Translations under genes and position numbers: made by a program
DNA from: a bacterium
Lineage (GTDB): Bacteria > Latescibacterota > Latescibacteria > Latescibacterales > Latescibacteraceae
NCBI GenBank assembly: GCA_021372535.1
Contig: JAJFUH010000009.1
Location: 1-43,176 of the forward strand
Length of the DNA stretch: 43,176 bases
Direction: 5' to 3'
The notes under the pieces: generated by a model
Seen by the model: the letters and a program-made list of their open reading frames with translations, nothing else
The model's database searches: none
Told to the model about the DNA's origin: nothing
Part shown: positions 1,559 to 43,176 of the stretch, one piece after another
Layout: each line of letters opens with the position of its first letter
How positions within the stretch are numbered: position 1 is the stretch's first letter

Positions 1559-4500
1559 TTACCGGAGCAGCAGCATCTGTTTTTCCTCTTTACCCGCAGA
1601 TGTCAGTAACCGGTAAATGTAAACTCCCGAACTGACACGGTATCCGCTTTCGTCGGTACCGTCCCATGTTACCGTATGCAATCCCGGTTGTTCATTACTG
1701 CTGATGAGCGTTTTTACTTTCTGGCCGTTGATGTTGTAAACAGTCAGAAGTATGTTTGACGGTTTTTCAATGGCATAGCTGATCGATGTTGCAGGATTGA
1801 ACGGATTCGGAACATTCTGATGCAGTTTTACGGGAACAGGGAAAACAATGGTATTCGTATCGAAAGGATTGATAGCTTCGATTGAAGGTGTCATCTTTGC
1901 GAACGTTTCGGCTTCGACAGCTTCGAGTACTTCAACCGATATTGGAAAGTCCCCTTTATCGCTGACCGGTCGCATTCTCATTCCCGGAAACGATACCGTT
2001 TCAAGGCCAGCAGGTTCCATTCTCAACATGCGCAGTTCTCCCGAGGATACGGAACGATCGTTAATCAGGGCATTTTCCGGCGGTCCGGTAATACCCGCAT
2101 ACCGGTAAGCATCAGAATTCCACCTGACAACGACTGATGCCGCGCCGATAAGAACTCGTGATTCTCCCGATTCTATCGAGACTGTGAGAATTATGTCATC
2201 TGCTTCCCCCGGATGAACCTGAATATGAGGAAAAGCTGTAGCGCGTGAGAATATCGGAGGCGTCAGAACCAATTTAGCGACCGCGCTCCTCTGCTGTCCG
2301 ACCCGGGCGGGAAGGCTTGGATAATCCGGCTGGATACCATACCGGGCGCAGATCAATCCGTCGGCAAGATCCGGTTTGCCGTCCGCGTTTACATCTCCAT
2401 AGTTCAGCACATTGTTTTCATAAGAACCGACCGGTATATCGATGCCATAACTCCCGATGATGAGCCCGTCCGCGCTGTTCACTGTGCCGTTGCCGTTCAC
2501 TTCTCCCCATATTCCCGATGGCACGATGGAGAACGACTGGTCGCTGACATCGTATATGGCGGCATCTGCGGTCGAGCTTATTCTTATCCTGCAGTTCGAG
2601 GATGTTATATCGGGAACCGTCCAAGTATATGATTTGTTCGAGGCACTGACACTCGCGGTTACAACAGACCATGTACTCCCGCCGTTCTGGGAATATTCGA
2701 TTTTTACTCTGTCGACATTCTGGGATGTCCATGTAATCGCATACTGTGATCCCGCAACCAATGTCTCCCCGCCATTCGGCAACCCCACAAGAATCGAGGT
2801 TTGCCCCGTTACGATATAATCATAATTGTCCGTACTGGTCAAAGGTATGAGATCGGTATATGTTCTGGCAGCGGAAAGACTCAATACATCCAGATGAATC
2901 ACACCGGTTGTATTCGCGTTTCCGATAACATCGAGAACAACATTGAACACATTCACTTTCCCGGTCGAACCCTGCGAATAGATATTCGAACTTTTCAGAA
3001 TCCCCTGGCCTGTGTTCGTTTCGTTCAACAGCGGATCGCTCCATCCGGTTGTCGAACCGCCGTTCGTTCTGATATATCTCAGCGAAGCGGCAGACCATGA
3101 CAATGCAATCGAATATTCGCCGAGCGAATAGGAACTGCCCGTCATGTCGATCACTACGGGTACAACGACCTGCTGACCCGATATCACGGGATTCTTTTCG
3201 GGATATATCTTTACTTCCTCATTTGCCCACACGTCCGCGGAAATCACCCCTTTGAAGGAGTCCTCTCCGACCCAGAACCATCCGGTGCGTTCGTCAGTAT
3301 TCTCAGCAGACTGGTTTGTCACCAGAAGACCATCATAAGGCGATTCATATGAAATGACAGCGGTATCATATTTCTGACCGGTTGTCTCTCCGGCGAGGGC
3401 CAGATAACCGACTCCGGTACCGTCCGGAGCAAACATGCCGAATGACACGGCGCCCAAATCATAACAGGGGAAAAAGGAAAATCCGTTGTTATCGAAAACA
3501 AAATTATATTTATAAGGACCGACATTATAATCATTGCATACCCACGGCTTGGGTGAATCAATCTCGAAATTGTGATCGCCGATATAATCGCCGTTCTGGT
3601 TTACCCAGAGAACGGCTTCATTTTCAGAAATGTAGAGAACGTCAAAGAGCATATTGACACACGATGCAAGCGATCCGAGAGCAGCGGCATCACCCCACAT
3701 GGAAATAAGCGCCGGCCCGTTGTTTGCCTGGGCACCGGCTTCCGCGTCACCCATATTAACCCACCAGGATGACAGATCGTACCGTTTAACCTCTGCTCCC
3801 GTATCGACATCCACATAGATCAACTCGGGTTTGGTAGTATTTCCAGACATATCACCCTGTGTTACGAGAAGGTAATCTCCGCCGTTACTGACCACACCGG
3901 GTCCATATTCCCATCCGGCCAGGTTAGGTACCGCAAATATATATTCGCCGTCCTCACCCCAGTCCATCTGTTTCTCTGCCTGACCGTTGGGGATCCATTT
4001 CCATGCATACAGGACCTTATTTCCATTATTATTGAGACTGCATTTGAAAAATTCCCGGTGATCATCGGGATGCCACGCCAGCCCACCGGGATCGCAGACT
4101 TCCCACGATGCGCATGTTTCCAGAAGGGTCGCGTCATAAGGATCATACCCGACAATCCATTTTTTATTGCTGTGTTCCCTGAGAGCCGTATTCGAGGCAC
4201 TTCCTCCGCCCCGGTCACCGCTGCCTGCCCAGATCACAGGGTGGACAAGAGGAGAACCCTGCTCATCGTGTGTTTCGAGCGTTATGCGGTTCCATGGATT
4301 GGGAGTAATCTGCTTTGTCAGCAGTGTCTTGGCACTGAAAGAATCATAACCCCATATGTAGTATGTATATTCTCCTGGAGGAACAATATTTCCATCATTA
4401 TCCTTGCCGTTCCAGTAAAGAACATTCGTCCCGGTCGCAAGATTGGTCAGAGCCGACATGTAGATACAGGTATCGATCTTGTTGACATAATGCCAGCCCA

Positions 4501-4735
4501 GATACCCGTTTCGTATATTCCTGATTGACGATGCCTTGTCTTTCGTAAAAACACAAAACAAGGTTGTAGCCGTAGTGCCACTGACATTCAGAGGTATCGT
4601 CAGGGTGGAACCATCAAAATTATACTGAATGTTGCCCGGTGCCGATATTTTAAGCTGAGTAGGGACAAAACTTGCGGCGTATGCACAGTGTGAAAGAAGA
4701 ATGACTGCGATCTGGGCACATATGAGCCTGTACAT
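1559..4735 (-). CDS. Secreted mosaic protein: FlgD-like Ig, cohesin-like, Ig, dockerin-like, C-terminal sorting domain
   Basis: The 1058-residue product starts at an ATG 7 bases behind GGAGG. Order of parts: signal peptide 1-20; FlgD-like Ig domain about 24-145 (WNGKDNDGNIVPPGEYTYY); an unassigned 146-505 region; cohesin-like beta-sandwich about 508-640 (SYSLGEYSIALSW); Kre9/Knh1-type Ig about 648-738 (PNGGETLVAGSQYAITW); dockerin-like pair of calcium loops about 741-806 (EVNGNGTVNSADG, DVNADGKPDLADG; the first loop begins with Glu instead of Asp); second cohesin-like segment about 840-945; C-terminal domain 970-1058 with NVPNPFNPATSISY and SSGVYIYRL, typical of type IX/FlgD-like sorting tails. 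It probably acts outside the cell, possibly as a scaffold or carbohydrate-binding surface protein. Its upstream neighbour at 4862 is a close paralogue. No catalytic motif was recognised, so the enzymatic role is unknown. Confidence 0.85.
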   Translation of the reverse strand: MYRLICAQIAVILLSHCAYAASFVPTQLKISAPGNIQYNFDGSTLTIPLNVSGTTATTLFCVFTKDKASSIRNIRNGYLGWHYVNKIDTCIYMSALTNLATGTNVLYWNGKDNDGNIVPPGEYTYYIWGYDSFSAKTLLTKQITPNPWNRITLETHDEQGSPLVHPVIWAGSGDRGGGSASNTALREHSNKKWIVGYDPYDATLLETCASWEVCDPGGLAWHPDDHREFFKCSLNNNGNKVLYAWKWIPNGQAEKQMDWGEDGEYIFAVPNLAGWEYGPGVVSNGGDYLLVTQGDMSGNTTKPELIYVDVDTGAEVKRYDLSSWWVNMGDAEAGAQANNGPALISMWGDAAALGSLASCVNMLFDVLYISENEAVLWVNQNGDYIGDHNFEIDSPKPWVCNDYNVGPYKYNFVFDNNGFSFFPCYDLGAVSFGMFAPDGTGVGYLALAGETTGQKYDTAVISYESPYDGLLVTNQSAENTDERTGWFWVGEDSFKGVISADVWANEEVKIYPEKNPVISGQQVVVPVVIDMTGSSYSLGEYSIALSWSAASLRYIRTNGGSTTGWSDPLLNETNTGQGILKSSNIYSQGSTGKVNVFNVVLDVIGNANTTGVIHLDVLSLSAARTYTDLIPLTSTDNYDYIVTGQTSILVGLPNGGETLVAGSQYAITWTSQNVDRVKIEYSQNGGSTWSVVTASVSASNKSYTWTVPDITSSNCRIRISSTADAAIYDVSDQSFSIVPSGIWGEVNGNGTVNSADGLIIGSYGIDIPVGSYENNVLNYGDVNADGKPDLADGLICARYGIQPDYPSLPARVGQQRSAVAKLVLTPPIFSRATAFPHIQVHPGEADDIILTVSIESGESRVLIGAASVVVRWNSDAYRYAGITGPPENALINDRSVSSGELRMLRMEPAGLETVSFPGMRMRPVSDKGDFPISVEVLEAVEAETFAKMTPSIEAINPFDTNTIVFPVPVKLHQNVPNPFNPATSISYAIEKPSNILLTVYNINGQKVKTLISSNEQPGLHTVTWDGTDESGYRVSSGVYIYRLLTSAGKEEKQMLLLR

Positions 4736-4861
4736 GGTCAGCCTCCGATATATAAATGGGCTCTTTATATTATTCTATGTTGGTTCAAAAAAAGAATACG
4801 ATATCAGAAAGCCAAACAAGATAATCATCACTTTATATAAGCCCGTGGATCACACCCCGGA

Positions 4862-7800
4862 TTACCGGAGCAACAGCATCTGTTTCCGGTCACTCCACCC
4901 GCTTGTGACAAGCTGATAGATATACACTCCGGAACTGACAATCCTCCCGTCATCATCGGTACCGTCCCAGATAACTTCATGGGTTCCGGAAGATTCGTAT
5001 CTGTCGGCGAGGATTCTCACTTTCTGTCCATAAACGTTATATAACGTGAGCACTACATGTGCAGGCGCGGATACCGTATATGATATCGATGTGACAGGAT
5101 TGAACGGATTCGGTACATTCTGTCTGAGTTTAAAAGATACGGGTGACATGCCGGTTAACCCGTCATCGGGATATACCCGCCGGTGATCGGTCTCAAGATA
5201 TGCAAACATTTCGGCATCAACGGCATCGAGTACTTCCAGACTCACGGAACCTGCATGATTTTCATGGAGAGACTGCAGCCTCACACCGGGAAACCCGAAC
5301 GCGGTTTCGCCATTAACTCTTATACGTGCTATCCGAAGCTCGCCTTCGCCGGTAAGGGAATCGTTGATAATTATACTTCCCGTAGAATTCTCGTCGATAC
5401 CGTTATAACGGAATACGTTCGGATCCCATCGGAGTATGACGGAAGCCGCTCCGATAAGAGTTCGCCGTCCCGCCGTACTGACCGATGAGTCGATAATGAT
5501 ATCGTTTGTCTCGGAAACATGCGCTTCTATGGTTGGAATCGCCCGTTCATGCAACACGCGGGCCTGTTCGGGGACCATTTTAGCTACGGTGCCCAGACGT
5601 CGTCCGATCCTCGCGGGAAGACCGGAGTAATCCGGCTGAATACCATACCGTGCGCAGATCAGCCCGTCCGCCAGGTCTTTTTTCCCATCGGCGTTGACAT
5701 CCCCGCATTTGAGAACACCGGATTCGAATGAACCGGCCGGTATATTGATACCGTAGCTTGCAATTATCAGCCCGTCCGCGCTGTTCACCGTTTCGTTGCC
5801 GTTCACATCACCCCAGATTCCCTCTTCGGCTGCTCCGGCAATAGTGTATGTATATTCGCCTATCGTCGTTATGGATAAAAGATTGTCATACGACTTCGCA
5901 GCCGACAGGCTGATGAGTTTCAGATCAAGCGTTCCGCCGGACCCGGCGCTTCCGATGACATCGAAAACGATATTGAATACATTTACGTTCCCCGAAGAAC
6001 CCTGAGCGTAGATGCCGGAACATTTCAGCTCTCCCTGCCCCGTTCCGGAATCGTTTACGAGGGGATTGCTCCATCCCGATGTTGCGCCGCCGGATGTACT
6101 CACATAGCGGAGCCGTGATGTCGACCATAACACCGACACCGAATATTCTCCGAGGCTGTATGAGCTTTTTGACATATCGATATACACAGGAATGGTGATA
6201 CGGCTGCTGGCGGCGAATGAAGACTCTCCGAAATATGCTGATATTTCTTCATCGGAAGACGGCACTTCCGCCGACGTGACAACCGATGAGGTGATCGTTC
6301 CCTTGATCGAATCCCAGCCTGAATACCAGGTTCCGTCTTCGGTTTTAAGAGTGCCGTCACTCGTTGTTTTAGCGACTGTCGAATAGATGCCGTCAAAAGC
6401 AGAGCCGTTGTCACATATGTCAATCCCGTACTTGTAGGCGGCGGTTTCTCCTGCGAATGCATAATAACCCATGCCGGTTCCATCGGGCGCCAAAAGACCG
6501 AACGAAACTGCTCCGAGATCGAAAGACGGACTCAGAGCAAAATAATTGGCGTCGGAAACGAAAGTATAGGTATACGGCCCGACATTGTAGTCATTACATA
6601 CCCATGGCATAGTTGCATCCGGCGCAAAATTATGATCCAGAATGTAATCGCCGTTGCCGTTGACGTAAACGACCAGATCGTTAAAATCATCCAATCCCCT
6701 CATCGGATCGATCACCTGTTTGAGACATGAACAGTGACAGCCGAGGAAAAGGAGGTTATTTCTGATGGACATCGTTCCGGGCCCGCCATGCATCTGTCCA
6801 CCCCTGTCATAATCTTCAATACTTGCCCAGAATTCCGTTATATCGAAAAGTTCCATCAGCATTCCGGAATCGATGTCCACTATCCAGAGTTCATCATGGA
6901 AATAGTTTTCCTGGTATGGATTGGCTGTAACATAGAGGAAGATACCATCGGTAACCGCGTTCATTTGCCTGTTCTGTGTCTGATCCCATAGAACAACGCC
7001 GCCGTCTCCCCAATCCTTCTCTACCACTGCCTCACCGTTCGGGACCCATCTGTATTTCCAGATGCCTCCTGTATTCCAATCCGGGTTATGCATAGGAAAG
7101 AATACATAGTTCCAGTCATCCGGTTGAATGACATACCGTTGCTTCTGAACCCATCCCGATTCGCTGTAAACAGTCATGGTTTCCAGTAACTGTGCATCCA
7201 CAGGATCGTTACCGATTTTCCATTTGTAATATTTCCCGGCAAAAACAGGATTGGCGAGCGGAATACCATTTTCATCCTTTTCGAGTATCTGAGTATCATA
7301 AAACGGGCGAATATTGACTGCATTCGAATTACCGGCCGTGATATTGATTGCCGCAACTCTCGCATTGACAGCGTCATAACCCCACAGATAGTAGGTATAA
7401 TCTCCGGAGGCACATATTTTCCCGTCGTTGTCACGGCCATCCCAGGTTATTGTATTATTTCCTTCCGACATCATGACGGGAGCCGCGACATATACACAGG
7501 TATCGATCTTGTTGACATAATGCCATCCGAGAAAACCGTTTCGTGTACTTATAATTTCCGAAGCCTTGTCCTTCGTGAACACGCACAGGGTCACCAGCGC
7601 CGGAGTGCCGGAAACCGTTACCGGTATCGATAGCTGCGTATGATCAAAAGCATAATGAATGGTTTCAGGAGACGATAATGTGAGAGCAGACGGAGTGAAA
7701 GAACCTGATGGAGTTGAAATTATCGAGAATGTGCCGTTACTCTTGTCGAAAACGGAGGAATTGTTGCTGTCGGTGATGCGAACAAGACATTTTGATGCGT

Positions 7801-8581
7801 TATTATTGGGAACCGACCAGGGATAATATCCCTTCGAAGCATCAACATGCGATCCTATTGTTGCCCATGAACTCCCGTTATCGGCAGAGTATTCGATATT
7901 GACGGAATTTACCGATACAGTCTGCCATGTTATTACCTTGCGCGTATTCCCCTGCCAATGTTCGCCGCCATTGGGGGAAAGAACGTTTATCGGGTAAACC
8001 GTCTGATTGACCGAAAAAACTCGCGATCCTAAATCACGTAATATTCCACTATCATTAGTAATTTTGATATGGACATTTATATTTAAAATATCCTGCGCCG
8101 TAAAAGAGGCGCCCGTTTTGAACACACACATGTGAAGAAGCCCGTAATTGCCGGTATTAATACTGCTTCCCTGCCGTACAAAATCTCTTGAATATTTTCC
8201 GGTCTGGTTTATTTCCCCTGCCGTTAACAGGTTTCCCCCCAGTACATTCGTCTCACTGGCGAACGTCACGGTCGATCCGTTGAAAACCATGGTGTTTTCC
8301 TGCACATCGGTCCCGGAAGATGTCGTTCTATACTCTGCTTTTGAGCCATCCCATGTACATTCAATCGAGAAACCTCTCAGGCTGTCCACATTTTTTACAT
8401 ACACAGCAAATCCGATATAGCTGTTCGGGCCTATACCGGTCGGATTATTCTGTCCCTGATATCCCGCGGATGAAATAACCGTATCAAGCGCAAAAAAAGC
8501 CTCGCTGTTATTCTGAGCGACTGCAACATTATGGAAACAGAAGAAGAAAATCAAACCGAGAAATACTCTGATATTGTTCAT
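4862..8581 (-). CDS. Secreted mosaic protein, paralogue of the 1559-4735 gene with an extra N-terminal cohesin-like domain
   Basis: The 1239-residue product starts at an ATG preceded by AGAGGAAAT. Signal peptide 1-22, then a cohesin-like domain about 25-195, a Kre9/Knh1-type Ig about 198-288 (PNGGEHWQGNTRKVITW), a FlgD-like Ig about 296-420 (WDGRDNDGKICASGDYTYY), an unassigned middle about 420-775, a cohesin-like domain about 785-915 (SYSLGEYSVSVLW), a dockerin-like pair about 920-985 (DVNGNETVNSADG, DVNADGKKDLADG), another cohesin-like segment, and a C-terminal sorting domain from about 1150 (NVPNPFNPVTSISY, SSGVYIYQL). Compared with the neighbour at 1559, the Ig module sits at the N-terminal side, so modules have been shuffled. 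Both share PWVCNDYNVGPY in the unassigned region. It lies between the PEGA gene (147 bases upstream) and its paralogue (126 bases downstream), suggesting one transcript. Likely an extracellular structural or binding protein; function is inferred. Confidence 0.85.
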   Translation of the reverse strand: MNNIRVFLGLIFFFCFHNVAVAQNNSEAFFALDTVISSAGYQGQNNPTGIGPNSYIGFAVYVKNVDSLRGFSIECTWDGSKAEYRTTSSGTDVQENTMVFNGSTVTFASETNVLGGNLLTAGEINQTGKYSRDFVRQGSSINTGNYGLLHMCVFKTGASFTAQDILNINVHIKITNDSGILRDLGSRVFSVNQTVYPINVLSPNGGEHWQGNTRKVITWQTVSVNSVNIEYSADNGSSWATIGSHVDASKGYYPWSVPNNNASKCLVRITDSNNSSVFDKSNGTFSIISTPSGSFTPSALTLSSPETIHYAFDHTQLSIPVTVSGTPALVTLCVFTKDKASEIISTRNGFLGWHYVNKIDTCVYVAAPVMMSEGNNTITWDGRDNDGKICASGDYTYYLWGYDAVNARVAAINITAGNSNAVNIRPFYDTQILEKDENGIPLANPVFAGKYYKWKIGNDPVDAQLLETMTVYSESGWVQKQRYVIQPDDWNYVFFPMHNPDWNTGGIWKYRWVPNGEAVVEKDWGDGGVVLWDQTQNRQMNAVTDGIFLYVTANPYQENYFHDELWIVDIDSGMLMELFDITEFWASIEDYDRGGQMHGGPGTMSIRNNLLFLGCHCSCLKQVIDPMRGLDDFNDLVVYVNGNGDYILDHNFAPDATMPWVCNDYNVGPYTYTFVSDANYFALSPSFDLGAVSFGLLAPDGTGMGYYAFAGETAAYKYGIDICDNGSAFDGIYSTVAKTTSDGTLKTEDGTWYSGWDSIKGTITSSVVTSAEVPSSDEEISAYFGESSFAASSRITIPVYIDMSKSSYSLGEYSVSVLWSTSRLRYVSTSGGATSGWSNPLVNDSGTGQGELKCSGIYAQGSSGNVNVFNIVFDVIGSAGSGGTLDLKLISLSAAKSYDNLLSITTIGEYTYTIAGAAEEGIWGDVNGNETVNSADGLIIASYGINIPAGSFESGVLKCGDVNADGKKDLADGLICARYGIQPDYSGLPARIGRRLGTVAKMVPEQARVLHERAIPTIEAHVSETNDIIIDSSVSTAGRRTLIGAASVILRWDPNVFRYNGIDENSTGSIIINDSLTGEGELRIARIRVNGETAFGFPGVRLQSLHENHAGSVSLEVLDAVDAEMFAYLETDHRRVYPDDGLTGMSPVSFKLRQNVPNPFNPVTSISYTVSAPAHVVLTLYNVYGQKVRILADRYESSGTHEVIWDGTDDDGRIVSSGVYIYQLVTSGWSDRKQMLLLR

Positions 8582-8728
8582 ATATTTCCTCTCGAATAAA
8601 CGAAGACAGCCGGTTGATCAGAGGAAAAAAATAACTATAATGACATGTTCATGTACCCGCACCTGAACTGAATAATCCCGAAACAACACCAGGAGTGATA
8701 TTATACAGCCCGAACCGTTATACCATCA

Positions 8729-22822: not shown

Positions 22823-25800
22823 TCACTTCTTCAATTCGATCGATCCCTGTCCCGCAGGTACTCCGAGCGAAACAAATCCTGTCTCGCGGTCGTATTTCCA
22901 GCCTTTTATCTTCTCGCCGTTCACCATAACAGCGTGTACCCGCTCCGGGGAGAGGATTTCGAGCGCAGCGGGTTCAACAGTACTGTAGGAGACGGCATCC
23001 TGCTCAATGAGAACCGTTATCGGCCTGTCGGAATTCACCACGGTTTTCCCTTTAATCGAGCCGAATGTCGCACCGGCAAGCAGAAAGCCGCCATCGCGGG
23101 ACAGCGCCGCACACAGGCCGTCCGTGCCGATCGATCCGTTATCCGCAGCGGTGCCCGACCGGTTGATGAGCACATCAACGTCGTCAAACTCGATGACCAT
23201 ATATTCCCCGAAGCTCTGCGATTTCCTTACATGAAGCTCGGTTGACAGGATTACGGCGGAGACCGCTTTCCCGCCTGATGTTGCAAGGTTCACGGTCACA
23301 CGGCCGAGCGGTTCGATTGGATTATCTGTGAGCATACCGAGCTTGACCGGATCGGCATCGAGGGTCAGAGAGGGTCTGGCATCCTGACCGAGCGCGATTC
23401 CCGCAAGTCTGGTAATACCGGAACTGACGGTGAAAACATCCTCATCGGCGAGCACCATGTCAGACAGCTTCGGGCCATGAAACAGCACATCCATCGATGC
23501 TTCCCCCTGCTGGGTCTCAAGCCTGTCGATAACGACAGCCGTACGGGGAGCTATATAGAGGATACCGCGTTCGAGCCTTTTTACGTTGCCCAGATAGAGC
23601 GGGGTGAGATCGCCCAGAGCGAACGCCATGTCACGGCCGTTGACGAAGGATGTTATCCGCGCATGATCGTTCATTCCGGCCGCATAGTCGCCGTGATCGC
23701 CCGTTCTCTGGCTCTGCGGGTTATGATCGACGAGAACGCAGTTGTGCCCGATGGGCTGGATTATATGACTCTGGTAAAAAGGATCGTTATAATAGTCGCT
23801 GTATTCCTGCTCGGTTATAAGGAGTCTGCCGCGGTCGGAGAGAAAAAACGTTCCCTGGTCGAGGTGCTGATGATTGCCGAAAGGACCGCACCTGAAGGTC
23901 AGGACAAATGGCTCCGGGCCGGGTCCCGAGCGGAACACCACCGTGCCGGTTTTCCTGAACCACTTTGCGCCCGTGAGATTTCCCGGCTGTTTGCGCGGGA
24001 TATCGTCGATATCGTACAGAACGGTATGAAACGTGTAGTAGGACGGCGTCGGCGGATTGAGATCGTAGAACCAGGCAAGCTCGGGATCGCGGAATTTTTC
24101 GAGCAGCCAGGGGAAAGCCGACATATCCGGCGGCGTAATCCGGGCATCGCCGAAGGTGAAATAGAGCCCGGCGTCATGGTCGGCTGCCCAGAATCCCTCG
24201 GTATACTGACGGTCGAGCATTGGCGACATGTCGATATTGAGGCATTTCTCGAAAAAGGGCAGTATCTCGGTATAGATACGCATGGTCCCGTACCCGTAGC
24301 CGTACCCTTCGAGGCAGCCGCTGTCGCCGTCATACACGGTATTCATGTGCGCTCTCAGTTTGTACAGGCACCCGCTCAGCATGGGTTCGAGACCGGTCGT
24401 GTCACCCGTTTCCCCGAGGATCGCAGTCGCGCCCGCAAGAGCCCCGCCGACAATCGCGGGTATCCAGTTCGACTCGTTGCACGTGCACTGGTCGGCAACA
24501 ACATACGTCCTGTAAGCCGGTTCGAGACCGTTACGGATCATCGCCTGCCGGACTGTGTCGCGTTCCTCTTCGGTCAGGCGGTCGTAGAGAATATCGTAGG
24601 TCAATGCCAGATTGCAGGTCGTATAGTATTGGTAGAGGTAGATATGATGCCCCCGGTTGACCATCCACGGGTGTGTCCATGTCGGCCAGCGGCAGAGCGC
24701 AATGAGCGCCTGTTTCGCCCATTCCGCCGCTTCCTCGTCGCCATCGACAACCGAGACGATGGCATTTGCCTCGGCCCGCTGGGGTATGGTCGCTATCCGC
24801 GTACGGTACGGCTCGAACGATGAGAGCCACCCCTTTTCGGGGAAATAATCGAGATCATAGGGAAGCTCTGTGGAGTATTTTTCACGGCCTTCGCGGGCAT
24901 CGGACCTGATTTTTTCGAGAAAGGCGGCGTTTTTCGGTTGTTTGAGACGCGCGACGAACGCTTCCCTGCCCTCACTGTCGAACCAGAGCCGTGGATGGGA
25001 AGCGAAACGCCGGTCATCCATTACCATGAAGGTAAATATCGACCGTGCGACAATCTCTTTTTTCCGTTCGCCGGTCAGCGTTACTTCGTACATTCCCGCC
25101 GGAAACCGTTTCCCGTCGAGGGCAGGCGGCTTATGGAGAGTCCATGAATCGCCATCCTTGTCGAGTTTTTCGGTGTATACCGTTTTCTCCGGCCTGTCGA
25201 ACCGGGTTATACTTACGGTGACGTTGTCCGGGGATGAGGAGGCGCATGTCCCCCTGATAGACAGCGTATCGCCCTCACGGTAATGATTGAGGGCAATCGC
25301 GGAATCCCACTCGTCGAGCGATTCCGTTCGCGGCTCCACGAAGGTAAACTGCGCTTCACGGTATCCCGAGACGGAGAAATCGTCGAAACCGGCTGCTATG
25401 GGTATGTCGGGATCGGCGCTCTCAAAGCGCACGGTGACGGCCAGGGCGGTTATATCGAGCTCTCCTGCAGGGGCACGGCCCGCCGCTTTCAGAATGTCGG
25501 CGATACCGAGGTCGAGGAGCACCCACCGGTTCGTTTCGGGATTCATGAACCGCGACCGCACCCTGTCGCCGTTCGCCATGGGAAGATCGATGCCGAGCCA
25601 TGATGGTTTGACCGTACTCTTGATATAGTACCTGAACCGTACGCGGCTCCGGTCATCGAGCCTCATGCTGAGCCGTTTGACCACGCCGGTAAGCTGCGGG
25701 GCGTTCCACTGCGGGTAGATAATCTTGCACAGAACTGTTCCCTGCTCGCCGGGCTGAATGGTTCCCGGATAGATGTACGGCGCTTCATAGGCGGCGTCCT

Positions 25801-25936
25801 GTATGGGCGGATAGCTCGACCATCCCATTGTCTCACGGGTCTCGAAATCCTGGCGGCAGGTCCACGGCTCGTAATCTATCGCTGAAACAGGCGTGACAGT
25901 GAAAATCAGCCCCGCAATACACCACAGTATTTTCAT
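22823..25936 (-). CDS. Heparinase II/III-like polysaccharide lyase, paralogue 1
   Basis: The 1037-residue product starts at an ATG behind GGAGATAGTC; a TTG 18 bases earlier extends the frame but lacks a suitable ribosome site. Parts: signal peptide 1-19; CBM-like beta-sandwich (about 25-195, QDFETRETMGWSSYPP); Ig-like linker to about 305; alpha/alpha-toroid about 310-640 with CNESNW (Asn490); C-terminal beta-sandwich with NHQHLDQG (His689, His691) and QPIGHNCVLVD. In related lyases the Asn, His and Tyr side chains bind the uronate and abstract the proton. It likely cleaves an acidic polysaccharide outside the cytoplasm by beta-elimination. It is the last gene of the run with the hydroxyacid dehydrogenase, symporter and cyclodeaminase-like genes, lying 54 bases behind the dehydrogenase. 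Two similar genes are at 30213 and 34917. Confidence 0.9.
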   Translation of the reverse strand: MKILWCIAGLIFTVTPVSAIDYEPWTCRQDFETRETMGWSSYPPIQDAAYEAPYIYPGTIQPGEQGTVLCKIIYPQWNAPQLTGVVKRLSMRLDDRSRVRFRYYIKSTVKPSWLGIDLPMANGDRVRSRFMNPETNRWVLLDLGIADILKAAGRAPAGELDITALAVTVRFESADPDIPIAAGFDDFSVSGYREAQFTFVEPRTESLDEWDSAIALNHYREGDTLSIRGTCASSSPDNVTVSITRFDRPEKTVYTEKLDKDGDSWTLHKPPALDGKRFPAGMYEVTLTGERKKEIVARSIFTFMVMDDRRFASHPRLWFDSEGREAFVARLKQPKNAAFLEKIRSDAREGREKYSTELPYDLDYFPEKGWLSSFEPYRTRIATIPQRAEANAIVSVVDGDEEAAEWAKQALIALCRWPTWTHPWMVNRGHHIYLYQYYTTCNLALTYDILYDRLTEEERDTVRQAMIRNGLEPAYRTYVVADQCTCNESNWIPAIVGGALAGATAILGETGDTTGLEPMLSGCLYKLRAHMNTVYDGDSGCLEGYGYGYGTMRIYTEILPFFEKCLNIDMSPMLDRQYTEGFWAADHDAGLYFTFGDARITPPDMSAFPWLLEKFRDPELAWFYDLNPPTPSYYTFHTVLYDIDDIPRKQPGNLTGAKWFRKTGTVVFRSGPGPEPFVLTFRCGPFGNHQHLDQGTFFLSDRGRLLITEQEYSDYYNDPFYQSHIIQPIGHNCVLVDHNPQSQRTGDHGDYAAGMNDHARITSFVNGRDMAFALGDLTPLYLGNVKRLERGILYIAPRTAVVIDRLETQQGEASMDVLFHGPKLSDMVLADEDVFTVSSGITRLAGIALGQDARPSLTLDADPVKLGMLTDNPIEPLGRVTVNLATSGGKAVSAVILSTELHVRKSQSFGEYMVIEFDDVDVLINRSGTAADNGSIGTDGLCAALSRDGGFLLAGATFGSIKGKTVVNSDRPITVLIEQDAVSYSTVEPAALEILSPERVHAVMVNGEKIKGWKYDRETGFVSLGVPAGQGSIELKK

Positions 25937-25990
25937 GACTATCTCCATCTCCAATGAAAAAAGTTGTCTTACGGGAAATTGAAGAAAGGC

Positions 25991-30212: not shown

Positions 30213-33200
30213 TTACTTTCCGACTGTCACTTCCCCCTCTCCGGCGGGAAGCTTCATGCGTACAATTTTTCGCTCGGCATCGTAGCTGAAATCTTTCACC
30301 GGTTTCCCGTTAACGGTTACAGCAGATGGCCGGGCGGCAGCTCCGAAAGCGACACTGCTTTCACATGAGAGACAGTATGTATAACCGTTTCCCCCTGTCT
30401 CGCACGTTATCGGCGCGGATGATTCGATCAACACCGTTCCATTCCTGAGAAGCGATGTACAGAGCGCGGCGAAGACACTCGAATCGTCCCATGTCACTGC
30501 CAGTGCATCGGTTGCAATATCCCCGGCAGTATAGATACAACCAGGCCGGGTTGCAAACGCGAATTTCGCTCCCCGGATCGTGCCGGATATGCAACCGTCG
30601 CCTTTAACGGTAACAACGTCCGGCTCAACCACGTCATCGGTGGACAGGAGATTCGCCATGACAAGCGGCACCCGGTCGGTACGGGCGGTTACCGTGAGCA
30701 TACCCTCTCTTCTCAGGGGTTTCTCGTTCTGGAGAGTATAGAGATAGTGCGGTGTTTCGACCGCTCTCACATCGAGGTGATCCGGATACAGGTGCCTGAT
30801 GTTGAGTGTCTTTTCGCTTGTTGGCGTTTTTGTGGTTTTAACCACTTCGCCGCGCATTTTCTCCGGGTCTTCGATGAGCTTGAGCTTGTCGTGGAGGGTG
30901 ATGGCCGAAACCGTGTCACCGGCCGTTATATCGTCAAGATAGTTCGTCTGGAAAAGAAGCGTCACATCGACATCACGGTCGCCGGGGACCGCAGTATCGA
31001 GCATGAGCAGTGTCCGGGGCTTGAGATACAGGACATTCCGTCTCAGGCACTTAACCTTCCCCCAGTAGAGACGTCCGATATCTCCCGAGGTGAAAGCGGC
31101 GTTCTTTCCGTCAAGAAACTGGTTGATGAAGGCATAGTCATCGAATCCGTCCACATGCCAGAGGAGGTCACCCACACGCTGGCTCTGGTGATTTCCGTTG
31201 ATAAGGATGGTCGAATGACCGACCGGCTGGGTATACCATGGCTGATAGAGGGGATCCTCGTAATAGGTGCTGCCGTGACGCTCCTCGATGAATATCCCGC
31301 CGCGGTCGGCGAGCCAGAACGATCCCTGGTCGATATGCTGGTGGTTGACAAAAGGTCCGGTACGCAGAACAAATACGAAATCATCGGGATTCCAGCCGCT
31401 CTTGAACACCGTGGTGCCCACATCCCTGAACACCATGACTGGATTCTCGTCGAACGGATCGTCCTGAGACACATCCTTTGTTTCGTAGAGCACATCCATG
31501 AAGGTTTCGCCTTCCTTCATGAAGTTATAAAACCACCCGAGCAGCGGATCCTTGTATTTGGGCAGCATCCACGCAAAGTTGGTTAGAGGTCGCAGGTTTT
31601 CTCCCGAATCGCCGAAATAGAAGGCCTTTTTGTCCTTGACGATTCCCGCCCAGACAGTTTCTTTATATGACCCGTTAAGCTTCCCCGACATATCGACCCT
31701 GAACACATTTCCCACTGCCGGAAGACTCTTCGACCACGAGAGCATCGAGAAATTGTAGTACCCGTATCCTTCGCCGTAAGCACCGTCACGGTCGGTGACT
31801 TTCTGGATGAGATCGTAATCTTTCAATATGGCGCCCGTAAAGTACGGTTCGAGCTGTGCGACATCGGGGCCGTCGCCGTACATCGCGGCCTGGCACATGA
31901 GCGACCCGCCGGTGATATGGGCAACCCAGTTCGAGGTGTTCGAGGTAACGAGGTCGTCCTCCACATATCCCTGGTGGCAACCGAGAACGATGAACCGCAT
32001 CATGCCGTCGCGGACAGCCTTACGCTCGGTGTCGCTCATAAGATCGTACGTCAGGTCATAGGCCATAGCCATGTCCATGCCGAATTCACCGACCGGATAG
32101 TAGATATGCCTCCCCCGCTTGACCATCCAGGGATGAAGGATATAGGGAAACGAGCTGATTTTCACCATCATGTCTTTTGCATATATACCCGCCTCACGGT
32201 CGCCGGCGAAGGCGTATGCGAGCGCATTGCTATAGAATGCAGAACGCCATGTGTGAATTCTCGCGCTCGACCAGCCCCGGAGGGTCGGAATCCAGTCTTC
32301 ATCGGGGAACTGGTCGATATCGAACACGACCTTGTCGAGCGGGGTTTCGCTGCGGGATGATTGAGCCTGTTTGACAATAGAATCGTATACCGATTTGAAA
32401 CGGTCTGTCTTGAGGCGGGCATCGACCCAATTCTTCTTCTTTTCGGCATCGAACCAGAGGCGCGGATGGCTGCCCCCGATGTTTTTCGGGGCTATGTAGA
32501 TCGTAAATTCGGTGTCGGAAAGCCGTTCGCCGCCCTTGAAGGCTTCGAGCACTGCATGATACAGCCCTTCCGGGAAAGACAGCCGAAACGAAGTGCCCCA
32601 TTCGTCGCCTTTTTTCTTCAGCTCGCCGGAATACACCGTTTTCGTGCTGTCGGTAAACAACTTTACGGTCAGGGAAACGCGGTTCACATCGAGTGGCCAG
32701 TTCCCCCGGAGCGTGAACGTGTCGCCGGCATTATAGTGCCTGTCGGGTATGTATGGCTTCCATTCGGAGAGCTTGAACACCTTCGGCTCGGCGAACTGGA
32801 ATGCCAGTGCTCTCGCGCCCTTGACCGTAATATCGTCAAGGCCGAAAAATATGGGCATCGCGGGATCGGCATCCGGAAATTTCGCAAGCACCGCGAGAGC
32901 ATTCACCTTTATCCTGTCACGGCCTGCGAGACGGGGATTCTCACGGATAAAATCATTGTACGAGAGCGCAACCGGCACCCAGCGGTTGGTCGGAGGGTCG
33001 GGTATGGTAACATCCACCTTTTTATCCGGTCCGGCGGCAAGCCTCACCTTGATGTATTCAGGGCGGAGCTCCGTTTTCAGATAGTACCTCAGGGAAACGG
33101 TCGAACCGGGCACGAAATACATATCGAGCTCTTTCTGTGCGCCCGCGTAATTGTCCACATTCGTATAGGGAGTGACTTTCTGGACGAGCGCTATGTTGGG

Positions 33201-33404
33201 ATCGCCGGGCACCATGGTATTCACCCGTATGTTGGGATCGTATGCAGTATCCTGCCAGAGGGGATACGAAGCCCATGCCGACAGCTCCCTGGTCTCGAAA
33301 TCCTGACGGTAGGAAAACGGCTCGAGCGCGGTATCGGCGGAAATATCCCGTGCAGCCGCGAATACAAGCATGCATGACATAATCAGAACAGCGAATACTT
33401 TCAT
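30213..33404 (-). CDS. Heparinase II/III-like polysaccharide lyase, paralogue 2
   Basis: The 1063-residue product starts at an ATG behind AGGAAGG. Signal peptide 1-24; N-terminal beta-sandwich about 30-200 (QDFETRELSAWASYPLWQD); linker to about 305; alpha/alpha-toroid with NTSNWVAHITGG (Asn492, Trp493) and EGYGYYNFS (about 545-553); C-terminal beta-sandwich with NHQHIDQGSFW (His688, His690) and QPVGHSTILING (about 726-737). The same catalytic-type Asn, Tyr and His are found in the paralogues, so it is probably an active lyase acting on an acidic polysaccharide at the cell surface or outside. It is very close in pattern to paralogue 3 (34917), from which the FliG-like gene separates it. Its substrate is unknown; heparinase-type, alginate and other uronate-containing glycans are possible. 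Confidence 0.9.
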   Translation of the reverse strand: MKVFAVLIMSCMLVFAAARDISADTALEPFSYRQDFETRELSAWASYPLWQDTAYDPNIRVNTMVPGDPNIALVQKVTPYTNVDNYAGAQKELDMYFVPGSTVSLRYYLKTELRPEYIKVRLAAGPDKKVDVTIPDPPTNRWVPVALSYNDFIRENPRLAGRDRIKVNALAVLAKFPDADPAMPIFFGLDDITVKGARALAFQFAEPKVFKLSEWKPYIPDRHYNAGDTFTLRGNWPLDVNRVSLTVKLFTDSTKTVYSGELKKKGDEWGTSFRLSFPEGLYHAVLEAFKGGERLSDTEFTIYIAPKNIGGSHPRLWFDAEKKKNWVDARLKTDRFKSVYDSIVKQAQSSRSETPLDKVVFDIDQFPDEDWIPTLRGWSSARIHTWRSAFYSNALAYAFAGDREAGIYAKDMMVKISSFPYILHPWMVKRGRHIYYPVGEFGMDMAMAYDLTYDLMSDTERKAVRDGMMRFIVLGCHQGYVEDDLVTSNTSNWVAHITGGSLMCQAAMYGDGPDVAQLEPYFTGAILKDYDLIQKVTDRDGAYGEGYGYYNFSMLSWSKSLPAVGNVFRVDMSGKLNGSYKETVWAGIVKDKKAFYFGDSGENLRPLTNFAWMLPKYKDPLLGWFYNFMKEGETFMDVLYETKDVSQDDPFDENPVMVFRDVGTTVFKSGWNPDDFVFVLRTGPFVNHQHIDQGSFWLADRGGIFIEERHGSTYYEDPLYQPWYTQPVGHSTILINGNHQSQRVGDLLWHVDGFDDYAFINQFLDGKNAAFTSGDIGRLYWGKVKCLRRNVLYLKPRTLLMLDTAVPGDRDVDVTLLFQTNYLDDITAGDTVSAITLHDKLKLIEDPEKMRGEVVKTTKTPTSEKTLNIRHLYPDHLDVRAVETPHYLYTLQNEKPLRREGMLTVTARTDRVPLVMANLLSTDDVVEPDVVTVKGDGCISGTIRGAKFAFATRPGCIYTAGDIATDALAVTWDDSSVFAALCTSLLRNGTVLIESSAPITCETGGNGYTYCLSCESSVAFGAAARPSAVTVNGKPVKDFSYDAERKIVRMKLPAGEGEVTVGK

Positions 33405-33772: not shown

Positions 33773-34654
33773 TCACACAAAGATATCATTGTCACCGCCC
33801 TTTTTTCCCCGCCTGATAACTATCTGCTGCTCTCGTTCAAGACAACGGACAACCTCGATGATACGCGCCTGCGATTCTTTAACCACAGACAATCTCATCG
33901 GCCCCATGTACTCAATTTCATCATTGATCATCGTTTTGACACGGTTTGAAACATTCCCGAAGATCAGGTCCTTCAATTTCTGTGAAGCGCCTTTCAGGGC
34001 AACCGCCAACTCCTTTATATCGACTTCCTTGAGAACGAGTTGAATGGCTCGGTCATCGAAACCCAGAAGGTCCTCGAAAAAGAAGAGTCTTTCGTGTATC
34101 TTATCCACGAGGGCTTCGCTCTCCTCGTTCATCCTGGCAAAAATGTCGTTACGAATGTCGCTGTCGAGGGATTCGAATATCGGCGCGAGAAAGACAATGC
34201 CAGCTTCGGGCTCGGGAAAGCCATGGGGAATATCCGCCAGCATCTGCTGGATCGAACCGATCTGGTCCGGAGACATTTTCTCCATGGCGGCGACAGACAG
34301 AATAATGTCCGTCGGCGAAATAGCGTCGAGCTGCGCGATGCGCATAATCAAATCGACCTGAAGGTCCCCGGGCATGGTACTCAGCAGCCGCGCCGCTTCG
34401 ACCGGATCAATCTGTGAGAGCATGACCGCGACAAGCTGAGGAAACTCCTGCTCGCTTCGCCGGAAGTCGCCGTTGAGCACCTTGCTGGTAAAGTTCATAT
34501 CATGCGCGGACTGGTACACAAGCTTGATGGCTTCCTCTTCCGTCAGGGCAGTGACCTCCCTGGTATTCTTGTCGAAGGAAATCCAGAGGTCCGAGGTCGT
34601 CCGGTAGAGCATGACAGCCTCGTTTTCGTACATAAGCTCAATGCGGTAGTCCAT
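33773..34654 (-). CDS. FliG-like protein with FliG middle and C-terminal domains and a new N-terminus
   Basis: The 293-residue product has a FliG-type middle domain about 66-145 (EFPQLVAVMLSQIDPVEAA, compare the EHPQ motif) and C-terminal domain about 190-290 (FEDLLGFDDRAIQLVLKEVD, ALKGAS, GPMRLSVV). In flagellar motors FliG sits on the MS ring and its C-terminal charged ridge interacts with stators; the Asp-Arg and Lys-Glu-Val-Asp positions of that ridge are kept. The usual FliG N-terminal domain, which binds FliF, is absent: the first 65 residues (MDYRIELMYENEAVMLYR onward) are unfamiliar. No flagellar, chemotaxis or gliding gene lies nearby; its neighbours are two heparinase-like genes. 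A stop in frame limits upstream extension. It could be a motor paralogue, part of another ring system, or an orphan of a lost flagellum. Confidence 0.8.
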   Translation of the reverse strand: MDYRIELMYENEAVMLYRTTSDLWISFDKNTREVTALTEEEAIKLVYQSAHDMNFTSKVLNGDFRRSEQEFPQLVAVMLSQIDPVEAARLLSTMPGDLQVDLIMRIAQLDAISPTDIILSVAAMEKMSPDQIGSIQQMLADIPHGFPEPEAGIVFLAPIFESLDSDIRNDIFARMNEESEALVDKIHERLFFFEDLLGFDDRAIQLVLKEVDIKELAVALKGASQKLKDLIFGNVSNRVKTMINDEIEYMGPMRLSVVKESQARIIEVVRCLEREQQIVIRRGKKGGDNDIFV

Positions 34655-34916: not shown

Positions 34917-37900
34917 CTATTGAAACACCACCGTTCCTTCACCGGCGGGCAGTTCGATGATACACGCCTTTCTTTCAAGATCATATGTCCATTCCGTCAC
35001 CCGTTTGCCATTCAGGATAACCTGCGATGGCCGCGATCCCGCACCCAGCGCGACTGTACCGGTGGTGCGGTGATAGTACTTCACAGTTCTTTCACCGATT
35101 TCGCAGGTTACCGGTTTCTTCGCATCGAGCAGGAGGCCGCTGTCACGGGAAAGCGTCGTACACACAGCCGCGAAAACTGTCGCGCCTTGTTCGGTAATCG
35201 CACAGGCATCGGTATCGAGCGAACCGAAATGGTAAACCGCGCCGGGCCGCGTTGAAAAAGCGAACGGAACACCGTCGATCGAACCGTACATGCAGTTTCC
35301 TCCTTTCACTGCCTGTATGTCGGGTTTACCGCCGTCCGTCGTTTTCAGAATATTGGCCAGAACGAGGGGAACGCCTGTTGTTCTCGATGTCACGGTCAGC
35401 ATGCCCTCGCGTTCGAGGGGCTTTTCATTCATGAGCGTTTCGGTGTAATGAGGAGTTTCCACCGCGGCAATCTCACGCTGTTCGGGACAGAGGTGCGCAA
35501 TATTGAGTGTTTTGCCGTCAATGGTGATTCCCGACAAATCATTTCCTGCGGCAATATTTTTCAGGAACGGCGTCTGGTACAGGAGGGTGACATCGACATC
35601 ATTATCCTCCGGTATGACCGTATCGATCATCAGGAGCGTGCGGGGTTTGAGATAGAGGACATTACGCCTCATTTCCTTCACCTTCCCCCAGTAGAGCCGT
35701 CCGATGTCGCCGGACGAAAAGGCAGCCGATTTCCCATCGAGAAAATGATACAGAAACGCATAATCATCGAACCCTTTCGCCATTTCGAGCGGATCACCCA
35801 CGCGCTGGCTCTGGTGGTTATGGTCGATGAGAATGGTGGAATGGCCGATGGGCTGCGTATACCATGATTGATAGAGCGGATCGGTATAGTAGGAGGCGCC
35901 GTGACGTTCCTCGATAAAACTGCTGCCACGGTCGGAGAGCCAGAACGATCCCTGGTCAAGGTGCTGGTGGTTGTAGAATGCCCCGGTATGCATGACGAAC
36001 ACAAAATCGTCCGGTTCCCATCCGCTCTTGAACACGGTGATCCCCACATCGCGGAATACCCTGACGGGAGGCTCGTCGAACGGAGGTTTCTTCGGAACAT
36101 CCCATGTCTCGTAGAGGGCATCCATGAAAGTTTCTCTGGCGTTCTTCGCGGAGGGTGCATCGGCAGTTTTTGTTTCAGGCCCGTATGATACATCGTATTT
36201 CAGGAAATTGTACAGCCATCCGAGCTGCGGGTCCTTGTATTTGTCAAGCAGCCACGCCCAGTTGGTCAGCTCCGTGATTTCGCTGTCGGAATCGCCGAAA
36301 AAGAAGGCTTTTTTCTTCTTCACGATTCCCGCCCAGATGAGTTCCGCATATGAACGGTCGATCTTCCCGGACATATCGATTTTGAAAACATTCTCGACAG
36401 CCGGCAGCGAATACGACCAGGAATACATGGAAAAATCGTAATACCCGTACCCCTCTCCTTGCGAGCCGTCACTGTCAAATACTTTCTGGATAAGATCGTA
36501 ATCTTTCAGTATGGCGCCGGTGAAATACGGTTCGAGGTCGCCGAGTCCCGTATCGTCACCGTATATGGCTGCCTGGCACATGAGCGAGCCGCCGGTGATA
36601 TGAGCCACCCAGTTCGAGGTGTTGTTCGTGACGAGATTGTCCTCCACATATCCTTTGTGGCAGCCGACAACGACATTCTTCATCATGGCGTCCCGGATAA
36701 TTTTCCGCTCGTTTTCACTCATGAGATCATAGAGGAGGTCGTATCCAACGGCGAGCTCCATGCCAAACTCACCGATGGGATAGTATATGTGACGGCCCCG
36801 CTCGATGAACCAGGGGTGGAGCCAGTATGGGAACGCACCCAGTTTGATCATGAGATTTTTCCCGTACTCTCCCGCCTCGTTGTCGCCGAGGAGACCGTAC
36901 GCAAACGCACTGTAATAGACTCCCTGTCTCCAGACTCTGAGACGGTCGAACCAGGGATAAATCGAGGGCAGTTGATTACCCGTGTGAAGGACCGTATTGA
37001 ACTGGTCGATCTCGAAGATGATTGAATCGAGGGGATTATTCTCACGGGTGTCACGGGCCTGTTTGAGGATATTATCGGCGACCTGTTTGAAACGCTCGCT
37101 TTTAAGACGGGCTTCGACGCGTTTCTTTCCCTCGGAATCAAACCATACACGGGGATGGTTCCGGCCGAGATTCTCCGGAGCTATGTAGAACGTACATTCG
37201 GTCCCGGAAAGTATTTTCTTACCGTCATATGCCCGGAGATCCGCATGGTAGAGACCCTCGGGAAATGACAGCGTAAAAGCCGCTGACCATTCATTTCCCT
37301 TCTTTCGCAGTTCCGCAGTGTACACTTCCTTCGTGCGTTCGGTAAACGGCGTCACCGTAATGGTCGCTCTGTCCGCATCGAGCGGCCACTGTCCCCTTAC
37401 CGTAAAGGTTTCCCCTTTCCGATAATGTCTGTCGGGAATATACGGCGCCCACTCCGAAAGCTTGTGCATGACAGGTTCGGCAAACTTGAAATGCACGGCC
37501 CGGGCGCCTTTGAACGTTATATCGTCAAGACCGAGATAGAACGGCATTTCCGGGTCCGCATCGGGGATTTTCACCAGTACCGCGAGGGCATATACCGGAA
37601 CAGCTTTCTTCCCGGCAAGCCGTGGATTCTCAAGAATGAGGTCATTATATGAAACGGTTATCCATTCCCATCGGTTTGTTGCGGGATCGGTGATTGTATA
37701 GTCTACTTTGCCGTCGTCACCCGCGGCGAGGCGTATTTTCAGAAACTCCACGGGAAGATTTGACTTGAGATAGAATCTGAGTGAAATGGTCACCCCCGGA
37801 GTCATATACATGTCGAGTTTTTTCTGAGCGCCGGCATAGGTATCGACATTGGTATAAGGGGTAACCTTCTGAACGATGGAAATGTTCGGATCGCCGGGGA

Positions 37901-38096
37901 CGATCATCCCGACCCTGAAATTGGGATCATACGCCGTATCCTGCCAGAGAGGATATGACGCCCAGGCCTGAAGCTCCTGCGTTTCAAAGTTTTCCGCATA
38001 CGTAAAAGATTCCAGAGATTCATCGGCATGAACCGTAATAATTGACATCGCTCCTAATAGTACGAGCACAACAGCGGCACACAGGCAGGTTTTCAT
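34917..38096 (-). CDS. Heparinase II/III-like polysaccharide lyase, paralogue 3
   Basis: The 1059-residue product starts at an ATG behind AAAAGGA. Signal peptide 1-24; beta-sandwich about 30-200 (NFETQELQAWASYPLWQD); linker to about 305; alpha/alpha-toroid about 310-640 with NNTSNWVAHITGG (Asn495, Trp496) and EGYGYYDFS; C-terminal beta-sandwich with NHQHLDQGSFWLSDRG (His710, His712) and QPIGHSTILID. A short insertion around residues 634-655 sets it apart from paralogue 2, otherwise the pair is the closest of the three. It likely cleaves an acidic polysaccharide by beta-elimination outside the cytoplasm. It is the first heparinase on this strand; paralogue 2 lies past the FliG-like gene, so the three may form one regulon but not one transcript. 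Confidence 0.9.
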   Translation of the reverse strand: MKTCLCAAVVLVLLGAMSIITVHADESLESFTYAENFETQELQAWASYPLWQDTAYDPNFRVGMIVPGDPNISIVQKVTPYTNVDTYAGAQKKLDMYMTPGVTISLRFYLKSNLPVEFLKIRLAAGDDGKVDYTITDPATNRWEWITVSYNDLILENPRLAGKKAVPVYALAVLVKIPDADPEMPFYLGLDDITFKGARAVHFKFAEPVMHKLSEWAPYIPDRHYRKGETFTVRGQWPLDADRATITVTPFTERTKEVYTAELRKKGNEWSAAFTLSFPEGLYHADLRAYDGKKILSGTECTFYIAPENLGRNHPRVWFDSEGKKRVEARLKSERFKQVADNILKQARDTRENNPLDSIIFEIDQFNTVLHTGNQLPSIYPWFDRLRVWRQGVYYSAFAYGLLGDNEAGEYGKNLMIKLGAFPYWLHPWFIERGRHIYYPIGEFGMELAVGYDLLYDLMSENERKIIRDAMMKNVVVGCHKGYVEDNLVTNNTSNWVAHITGGSLMCQAAIYGDDTGLGDLEPYFTGAILKDYDLIQKVFDSDGSQGEGYGYYDFSMYSWSYSLPAVENVFKIDMSGKIDRSYAELIWAGIVKKKKAFFFGDSDSEITELTNWAWLLDKYKDPQLGWLYNFLKYDVSYGPETKTADAPSAKNARETFMDALYETWDVPKKPPFDEPPVRVFRDVGITVFKSGWEPDDFVFVMHTGAFYNHQHLDQGSFWLSDRGSSFIEERHGASYYTDPLYQSWYTQPIGHSTILIDHNHQSQRVGDPLEMAKGFDDYAFLYHFLDGKSAAFSSGDIGRLYWGKVKEMRRNVLYLKPRTLLMIDTVIPEDNDVDVTLLYQTPFLKNIAAGNDLSGITIDGKTLNIAHLCPEQREIAAVETPHYTETLMNEKPLEREGMLTVTSRTTGVPLVLANILKTTDGGKPDIQAVKGGNCMYGSIDGVPFAFSTRPGAVYHFGSLDTDACAITEQGATVFAAVCTTLSRDSGLLLDAKKPVTCEIGERTVKYYHRTTGTVALGAGSRPSQVILNGKRVTEWTYDLERKACIIELPAGEGTVVFQ

Positions 38097-38928: not shown

Positions 38929-39558
38929 ATGATTAATAACACTACCCACTTCAACTTACTGAGTAATAAGAAGTCCGTCATGATACTGTTAATCCATAGC
39001 GTCTCGGTTGTACTTCTCATATTTTTTATACTGCCGCTACAAGTTCACGCTGAAAGGATTTATACTCACTACTACTCAGAACCCTCAATAAGCGAAATCG
39101 GCGATATTGCGATTGATTCAAACTGTGTCTGGCTCGCATCCGTAAAAGGTATTGCCCGATATGACAAAAAAACCGGTATGATCACGAAATACTCTATTTT
39201 CTATTCGGCGTATGACTGGCCTTATCAATGGGCGACGTCTATTATTGTCGATGCAAGCGGGACTGTTTGGGCGGGCACCTATGGGGCCGGACTCATGCAA
39301 TTCGATGGTGATGGTTTTTCATTCTATGACGCTGCTGATGAGCCGGAAGATAAGGAGATCCGTGATATTGAAATGGATAAGGACGGCACCCTCTGGATGG
39401 TTACGGAAAAAGGTGTAATCGCCTATGATGGGACTGAATGGCATATATATGATGGAACCAATGGCCTGCCTTCAGCAACAATATTCTACGACGTCTCTAT
39501 CGGTGATGACAATACGGTCTGGGTTGCTTCAAGCAGGGGGGCTTTGCCGGAATCGTGA
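38929..39558 (+). pseudogene. Beta-propeller (two-component-regulator-like) protein, 5' part, broken by frameshift
   Basis: This fragment encodes a signal-anchor (ILLIHSVSVVLLIFFILPLQ) followed by Reg_prop-type repeats with W-x-A/G-x-x-x-G-I/L-x-x-YD (VWLASVKGIARYD, VWAGTYGAGLMQFDG, LWMVTEKGVIAYDG). The chosen ATG has GGAAGG 11 bases before it; the TTG at 38851 has no clear ribosome site. A run of six G at 39536-39541 shifts the frame, and reading ends 17 bases later at 39558. With five G the text continues as S-R-G-L-C-R-N-R-D-G-R-W-T-L-F, which restores a normal propeller repeat in the second part. Such propellers are sensory or carbohydrate-binding in secreted proteins of Bacteroidetes-type bacteria. 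Confidence 0.8.
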
Positions 39559-42391: not shown

Positions 42392-42408
42392 TCTATATAG
42401 GGGTGCAT

Positions 42409-43005: not shown

Positions 43006-43176
43006 ATGAAGAAATTTGCAATTCTTATGTGTGTTCTTGTTTTTGTAGCGACGCAGGCATTTGCTGCGAATTTTGCGCCGACGCTGCTGAAAATTTCAGC
43101 TCCGTCCGTCGTGCAGTACGCTTTTGACGGGAAAGACGTGAAGATACCGGTGAAGGTAACGGGCACGCCTGCGAAC
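43006..43176 (+). CDS. Start of a third secreted mosaic protein (partial)
   Basis: The open frame from an ATG 6 bases behind AGGGGG runs to the window edge without a stop (57 residues). It has a signal peptide (MKKFAILMCVLVFVATQAFA) and then NFAPTLLKISAPSVVQYAFD, similar to residues 21-40 of the 1559-4735 product (SFVPTQLKISAPGNIQYNF) and to the start of the FlgD-like Ig module in the 4862-8581 product. The rest of the protein lies outside the window, so the module order is not known. It follows the second Lrp regulator by 60 bases. Confidence 0.85.
   Translation, partial: MKKFAILMCVLVFVATQAFAANFAPTLLKISAPSVVQYAFDGKDVKIPVKVTGTPAN

Follow-up and report, generated by a model that had tools for sequence, protein, structure and literature searches.

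Two adjoining minus-strand open reading frames encode secreted proteins, P1 (1058 aa) and P2 (1239 aa), in which a large head with a predicted beta-propeller fold precedes a cohesin-like, dockerin-like, cohesin-like (C-D-C) stalk and a C-terminal type IX secretion system (T9SS) sorting tail. On balance we think it probable that these are surface propeller proteins carried on a calcium-stiffened stalk, and that their C-terminal cassette has been reused by domain shuffling. The window analyzed, 43,176 nucleotides in length, is the entire contig (C9) of a 5.35-Mb assembly of Candidatus Latescibacterota that is 95.9% complete. The features are collected in Table 1, where the signal peptides were assigned by eye. 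The first-pass annotation had placed cohesin-like and dockerin-like modules, Ig modules and a type IX sorting domain within each of two adjoining T9SS-exported chains, and this is borne out by the open reading frames, by the Dockerin_1 and TIGR04183 matches, and by comparison with a cohesin profile. The Ig modules are Kre9/KNH-like, below the Pfam curated cut-off in P1 and P2 alike.

Table 1. Coordinates of P1, P2, their modules and the truncated head paralog
Feature	Position	Strand	Residues (aa)	Make-up or evidence
P1	1559..4735	-	1058 aa	signal peptide, head, cohesin-like 1, Ig, dockerin-like, cohesin-like 2, T9SS tail
P1 head	3218..4678	-	20-506	FlgD-like Ig (about first 125 aa), then beta-propeller (predicted); without its own Pfam family
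P1 cohesin-like 1	2798..3229	-	503-646	hhalign 92% to phylum cohesin profile; phylum cohesin HMM E 2e-3
P1 Ig-like (Kre9/KNH type)	2516..2800	-	646-740	PF10342 E 4.8e-4, under cut-off
P1 dockerin-like	2318..2512	-	742-806	Ca loops 2468-2503 (EVNGNGTVNSAD) and 2360-2395 (DVNADGKPDLAD)
P1 cohesin-like 2 (tentative)	1892..2236	-	834-948	67-88% to cohesin-like 1; direct cohesin profile 0.8-6.5%; cassette position
P1 T9SS type A / FlgD-type sorting tail	1562..1828	-	970-1058	TIGR04183 33.2 bits; PF13860
P2	4862..8581	-	1239 aa	signal peptide, weak N-terminal cohesin-like, Ig, head, cohesin-like 1, dockerin-like, cohesin-like 2, T9SS tail
P2 N-terminal beta module, weakly cohesin-like	7994..8518	-	22-196	24% to cohesin-like 1; 0.8% to phylum cohesin profile
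P2 Ig-like	7706..7996	-	196-292	weak PF10342; clusters with P1 Ig and relatives' Ig repeats
P2 head (FlgD-like Ig + propeller family)	6275..7705	-	293-769	head profile E 4e-199
P2 cohesin-like 1	5828..6262	-	774-918	dockerin directly after; profile comparison and Foldseek
P2 dockerin-like	5627..5818	-	922-985	Ca loops 5774-5809 (DVNGNETVNSAD) and 5666-5701 (DVNADGKKDLAD)
P2 cohesin-like 2 (tentative)	5180..5566	-	1006-1134	profile comparison; AlphaFold run of stalk
P2 T9SS type A / FlgD-type sorting tail	4865..5134	-	1150-1239	TIGR04183 23.5 bits; PF13860
Head paralog start	43006..43176	+		signal peptide plus about 37 aa of head; truncated where the contig stops

The dockerin-like modules are recognized by the PF00404 (Dockerin_1) profile. 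In a search of the genome it gave 28.9 bits for P2 and 26.3 bits for P1, both above the cut-off of 22.9, which places both modules in dockerin type I by this profile; hmmscan of the whole proteins gave 24.4 bits for P2, over the same cut-off, and 20.4 bits for P1. Each module can be read as a pair of 12-residue calcium loops with ligands at positions 1, 3, 5, 9 and 12, and all the ligand residues are D or N except for a Glu at position 1 of P1 loop 1. The two dockerins share 82% identity, and the C-D-C stalks as a whole 49%.

PF00963 (Cohesin) gave no match in P1 or P2 at E values up to 1, and neither protein is among its hits in the genome. We therefore term the modules cohesin-like, since the curated cut-off is not reached. 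The evidence for their homology comes from a cohesin profile of the phylum built from 32 PF00963 loci, 29 from other genomes and three from proteins of this genome outside the window, with P1 and P2 excluded. Cohesin-like 1 aligned to it with an hhalign probability of 92% and E = 8e-8, while four control profiles remained below 1%. This profile-profile comparison provides good grounds for assigning cohesin-like 1 as a cohesin homolog. Cohesin-like 2 is tentatively and weakly assigned as a cohesin through its likeness to module 1 (67-88%) and its position. An AlphaFold model of the stalk, calculated from two sequences, had a pLDDT of 48; with this low-confidence model the single-domain Foldseek matches were cohesins, with TMt up to 0.63 and including Archaeoglobus fulgidus 2xdh, which we regard as supporting the assignment and not as proof of it. 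Two-sequence profiles of cohesin-like 1 and 2 compared with PDB sequences found no cohesin match. An eight-row profile that did match cohesins was discounted, as three of its rows were known cohesins.

TIGR04183 scores in both tails exceed the cut-off of 23 bits, FlgD_ig is also over its cut-off, and genes for SprA and for a PorU sortase of full length occur in the genome, so P1 and P2 belong with T9SS type A cargo. The tails, SprA and the complete PorU provide a firm basis for export and for probable attachment to the surface. The FlgD-type T9SS sorting tail has over 100 matches in this genome (G000), which makes for a very large set of secreted proteins.

The largest module of both proteins, a head of about 480 aa, was absent from the first-pass description. 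Pfam recognizes FlgD_ig alone within it, in the short FlgD-like part, and no family for the rest. An AlphaFold model based on 21 sequences reached a pLDDT of 83.8 and a pTM of 0.87, and its best Foldseek matches were beta-propellers (NHL, YncE, WD40 and PorZ; TMt up to 0.62). On this model the predicted fold is a beta-propeller. A scan of the genome contigs with P1 alone returned no matches. At least 16 further copies of the head are present in the genome, one of them partial at a contig end, in addition to the start at 43006. The 16 paralogs that were read are proteins of about 600 aa consisting of signal peptide, head and T9SS tail only, with no cohesin or dockerin between head and tail. Three relatives of the same family gave 22, 16 and 8 head matches (fragments counted), such that three of four genomes of the family have 16-22 matches each; in other family members the head is instead joined to Ig repeats and Reg_prop-like propellers. 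These counts suggest a large secreted propeller family lacking a Pfam entry of its own, and it may decide what these bacteria bind. The gene beginning at 43006 had been taken for a third copy within a scaffold system. All that can be read before the contig stops is the signal peptide with roughly 37 aa of head and neither cohesin nor dockerin, which lends that idea no support. Two Lrp/AsnC-type regulators lie in tandem (41631-42167 and 42403-42945) directly upstream of this truncated gene, the second of them 60 bases from it.

The region that follows the head conforms to a wider pattern. Dockerin, short linker, cohesin-like module and T9SS tail form a recurrent C-terminal cassette, and all five dockerins detected in this genome (P1, P2, C6, C85 and C29) have a cohesin-like module behind them, with the T9SS tail next. 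We examined loci from 64 Latescibacterota genomes, taking the best cohesin or dockerin in each, which is a sample and not a census. In 34 dockerin-cohesin pairs the distance from dockerin start to cohesin start is 69-101 aa; the cohesin ends 14-33 aa before the tail, and the tail comprises the last 92-97 aa. In other families of the phylum it is common for a dockerin to occur with no cohesin. The first-pass annotation had suggested a search for the same architecture in related genomes, and cohesin-dockerin-cohesin-tail as in P1 and P2 was indeed found in G002, G011, G017 and G007; in the last, from the same genus, an FG-GAP propeller stands ahead of the stalk (L187). In several relatives the cassette proteins are also paired as neighbors, for example in G020:C71, G028:C91 and G033:C44, and the genome studied here has a second adjoining pair of large T9SS proteins (L037:196-4116 and 4376-8584).

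Clustering of the 36 regions upstream of the cassette, with those of P1 and P2 among them, gave nine clusters unrelated to one another. Two homologous groups hold 12 and 14 cassettes, i.e. 26 of the 36 upstream regions, and a few genes were fetched twice, so the 34 pairs are not all independent events. In a tree of 35 heads, P1 groups with L007, L008, L070 and L082 (100/99) and P2 with L022 and L081 (100/100). Heads that lie in separate clades yet stand on stalks and dockerins as similar as those of P1 and P2 indicate domain shuffling, and evolution would have reused the cassette behind many unrelated N-terminal regions in Latescibacterota. We found no paper in the open-access literature that describes a dockerin-cohesin-T9SS cassette, and at the level of sequence its recurrence across the phylum seems to be a pattern that is both new and open to test.

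In the reading that we favor, P1 and P2 would be exported by the T9SS and then either anchored at the surface or released. The propeller head, presumably the binding part, would sit atop a stalk made of beta-sandwich modules (cohesin-like, Ig, cohesin-like) together with a double calcium loop of dockerin type close to the C-terminal sorting tail. That loop would bind calcium, and a calcium-stiffened stalk beneath a binding head is the simplest reading of the arrangement. Dockerin and cohesin would act inside one chain, either packed against each other or as mere adjacent spacers, and would not recruit other proteins. The two may pair within the chain. Correlation of distances showed no special coupling of dockerin with cohesin, with a partial r of 0.27 (tail held) compared with 0.19 for dockerin and tail, and 0.85 for cohesin and tail.

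A special case of the stalk model would dispense with recognition altogether. The dockerin-like repeat would then simply be a calcium-binding linker of the EF-hand kind, and the cohesin-like modules would act as generic beta-sandwich spacers. The first loop is interrupted by insertions in many cassettes and has a Glu at position 1 in P1, the cohesin-like modules of P1 and P2 lie under the Pfam cut-off, and animal adhesion proteins have cohesins for which no dockerin partner is detected (PMC6030884). Yet the recurrent pairing of both module types in fixed order would then be a coincidence, and we judge this version improbable.

Alternatively, as the first-pass annotation had proposed, the dockerin of one chain might bind the cohesin of another, either between P1 and P2 or homotypically, to give chains or a surface lattice of propeller proteins. 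Dockerins are known to bind cohesins, the P1 and P2 genes adjoin and share a C-D-C arrangement, archaeal and bacterial proteins with both modules are on record (PMC9012536, PMC3413522), and some relatives have neighboring genes for cohesin-dockerin and double-cohesin proteins (G055:C67 and G017:C113). However, the dockerin and cohesin of one chain are separated by about 30 residues, and therefore pairing in cis would compete with pairing in trans. Moreover this genome yielded no cohesin-only array, cohesin 2 has diverged strongly, and the dockerin-cohesin distances lack any specific coupling. Cassettes or stalks may self-assemble; assembly between chains is in our estimate rather unlikely. We attach a similarly low likelihood to a broader proposal, that the cassette is a phylum-wide, calcium-controlled surface coupling unit. 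After export, dockerins would pair with cohesins in the same chain or in neighboring ones, and the propellers and other heads would thereby be fixed in an ordered outer layer that depends on calcium and needs no scaffoldin. Be it as a general stalk or as a self-coupling element, the cohesin-dockerin pair would in this candidate phylum belong to a secretion cassette and not serve to dock enzymes.

The two proteins might instead be scaffoldins of a cellulosome-like system that docks dockerin-bearing enzymes. A T9SS-anchored scaffoldin set is known from Cloacimonadota (PMC8542988), and three heparinase II/III-like proteins are encoded in the window. Against this, searches of the 95.9% complete genome with family and phylum profiles located every dockerin in a cohesin-bearing protein; they found neither a dockerin-only protein nor a multi-cohesin scaffoldin of the usual kind, and a catalytic domain is absent from all the dockerin proteins scanned (C29 left out). 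A further genome search used a profile (A9) that contained rows from P1 and P2, and serves as a census only and not as evidence. With no dockerin outside a cohesin-bearing chain, an enzyme docking system is unlikely. The cellulosome reading does not survive this census, and we consider it highly improbable; a scaffold on which other proteins dock is likewise unlikely here.

Other genes of the window are as follows. Directly downstream of P1, a minus-strand gene that runs off the contig (1-1515) encodes a putative metalloprotease of the MXAN_6640 family (193.8 bits, cut-off 140), after which a PQQ-like propeller begins. Contig C28 opens inside an ORF with PQQ-propeller, Ig, cohesin-like and T9SS parts, and comparison of the contig ends with C28 and C48 revealed no overlap. 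A protein with three PEGA domains is encoded directly upstream of P2 (8729-9868, minus strand) and may be cotranscribed with P2 and P1. The large heparinase II/III-like proteins (22823-25954, 30213-33404 and 34917-38096) are clustered with an SSF symporter, dehydrogenases and M20 peptidases, which looks like a polysaccharide-use locus. Between two of them lies a FliG-like gene (33773-34654; FliG_C 6.8e-33), and no other flagellar gene was recognized in the window. A Reg_prop propeller protein with a T9SS tail is encoded at 39425-41116.

The first-pass annotation had started from the premise that classical cohesins and dockerins reside on separate proteins. This is wrong, as single chains with both occur in Acetivibrio scaffoldins (PMC3413522) and in ANME archaea (PMC9012536); the combination in P1 and P2 is real and not unprecedented. 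The scaffoldins of Acetivibrio cellulolyticus resemble P1 and P2 in having cohesins and a dockerin in one secreted polypeptide (PMC3413522). Their cohesins are matched to dockerin-bearing enzymes, whereas P1 and P2 have one dockerin between two cohesin-like modules, a propeller head and a T9SS tail, and no docking enzymes were found. ANME proteins have one dockerin and up to five cohesins (PMC9012536). Such non-cellulosomal proteins, from ANME and from Archaeoglobus fulgidus (cited in that source), occur in organisms not known as cellulose degraders; they share with P1 and P2 the presence of both modules in one protein, and differ in export system and partner modules. Binding of archaeal cohesin-dockerin pairs has been measured, as cited in PMC9012536, whereas those of P1 and P2 are predicted from sequence. 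Candidatus Stygibacter (Cloacimonadota) has a cellulosome-like set in which enzymes carry the dockerins and a scaffoldin of 3,755 aa the cohesins (PMC8542988). It is likewise a member of a candidate phylum that combines cohesin and dockerin with a T9SS-type C-terminal domain; P1 and P2 differ from it in having both modules in the same chain, and in that dockerin enzymes were not found. The remaining parallel is with T9SS type A cargo (TIGR04183), with which P1 and P2 share a C-terminal sorting domain over the cut-off in a genome that has SprA and PorU, and to which they add the head module and the cohesin-dockerin stalk.
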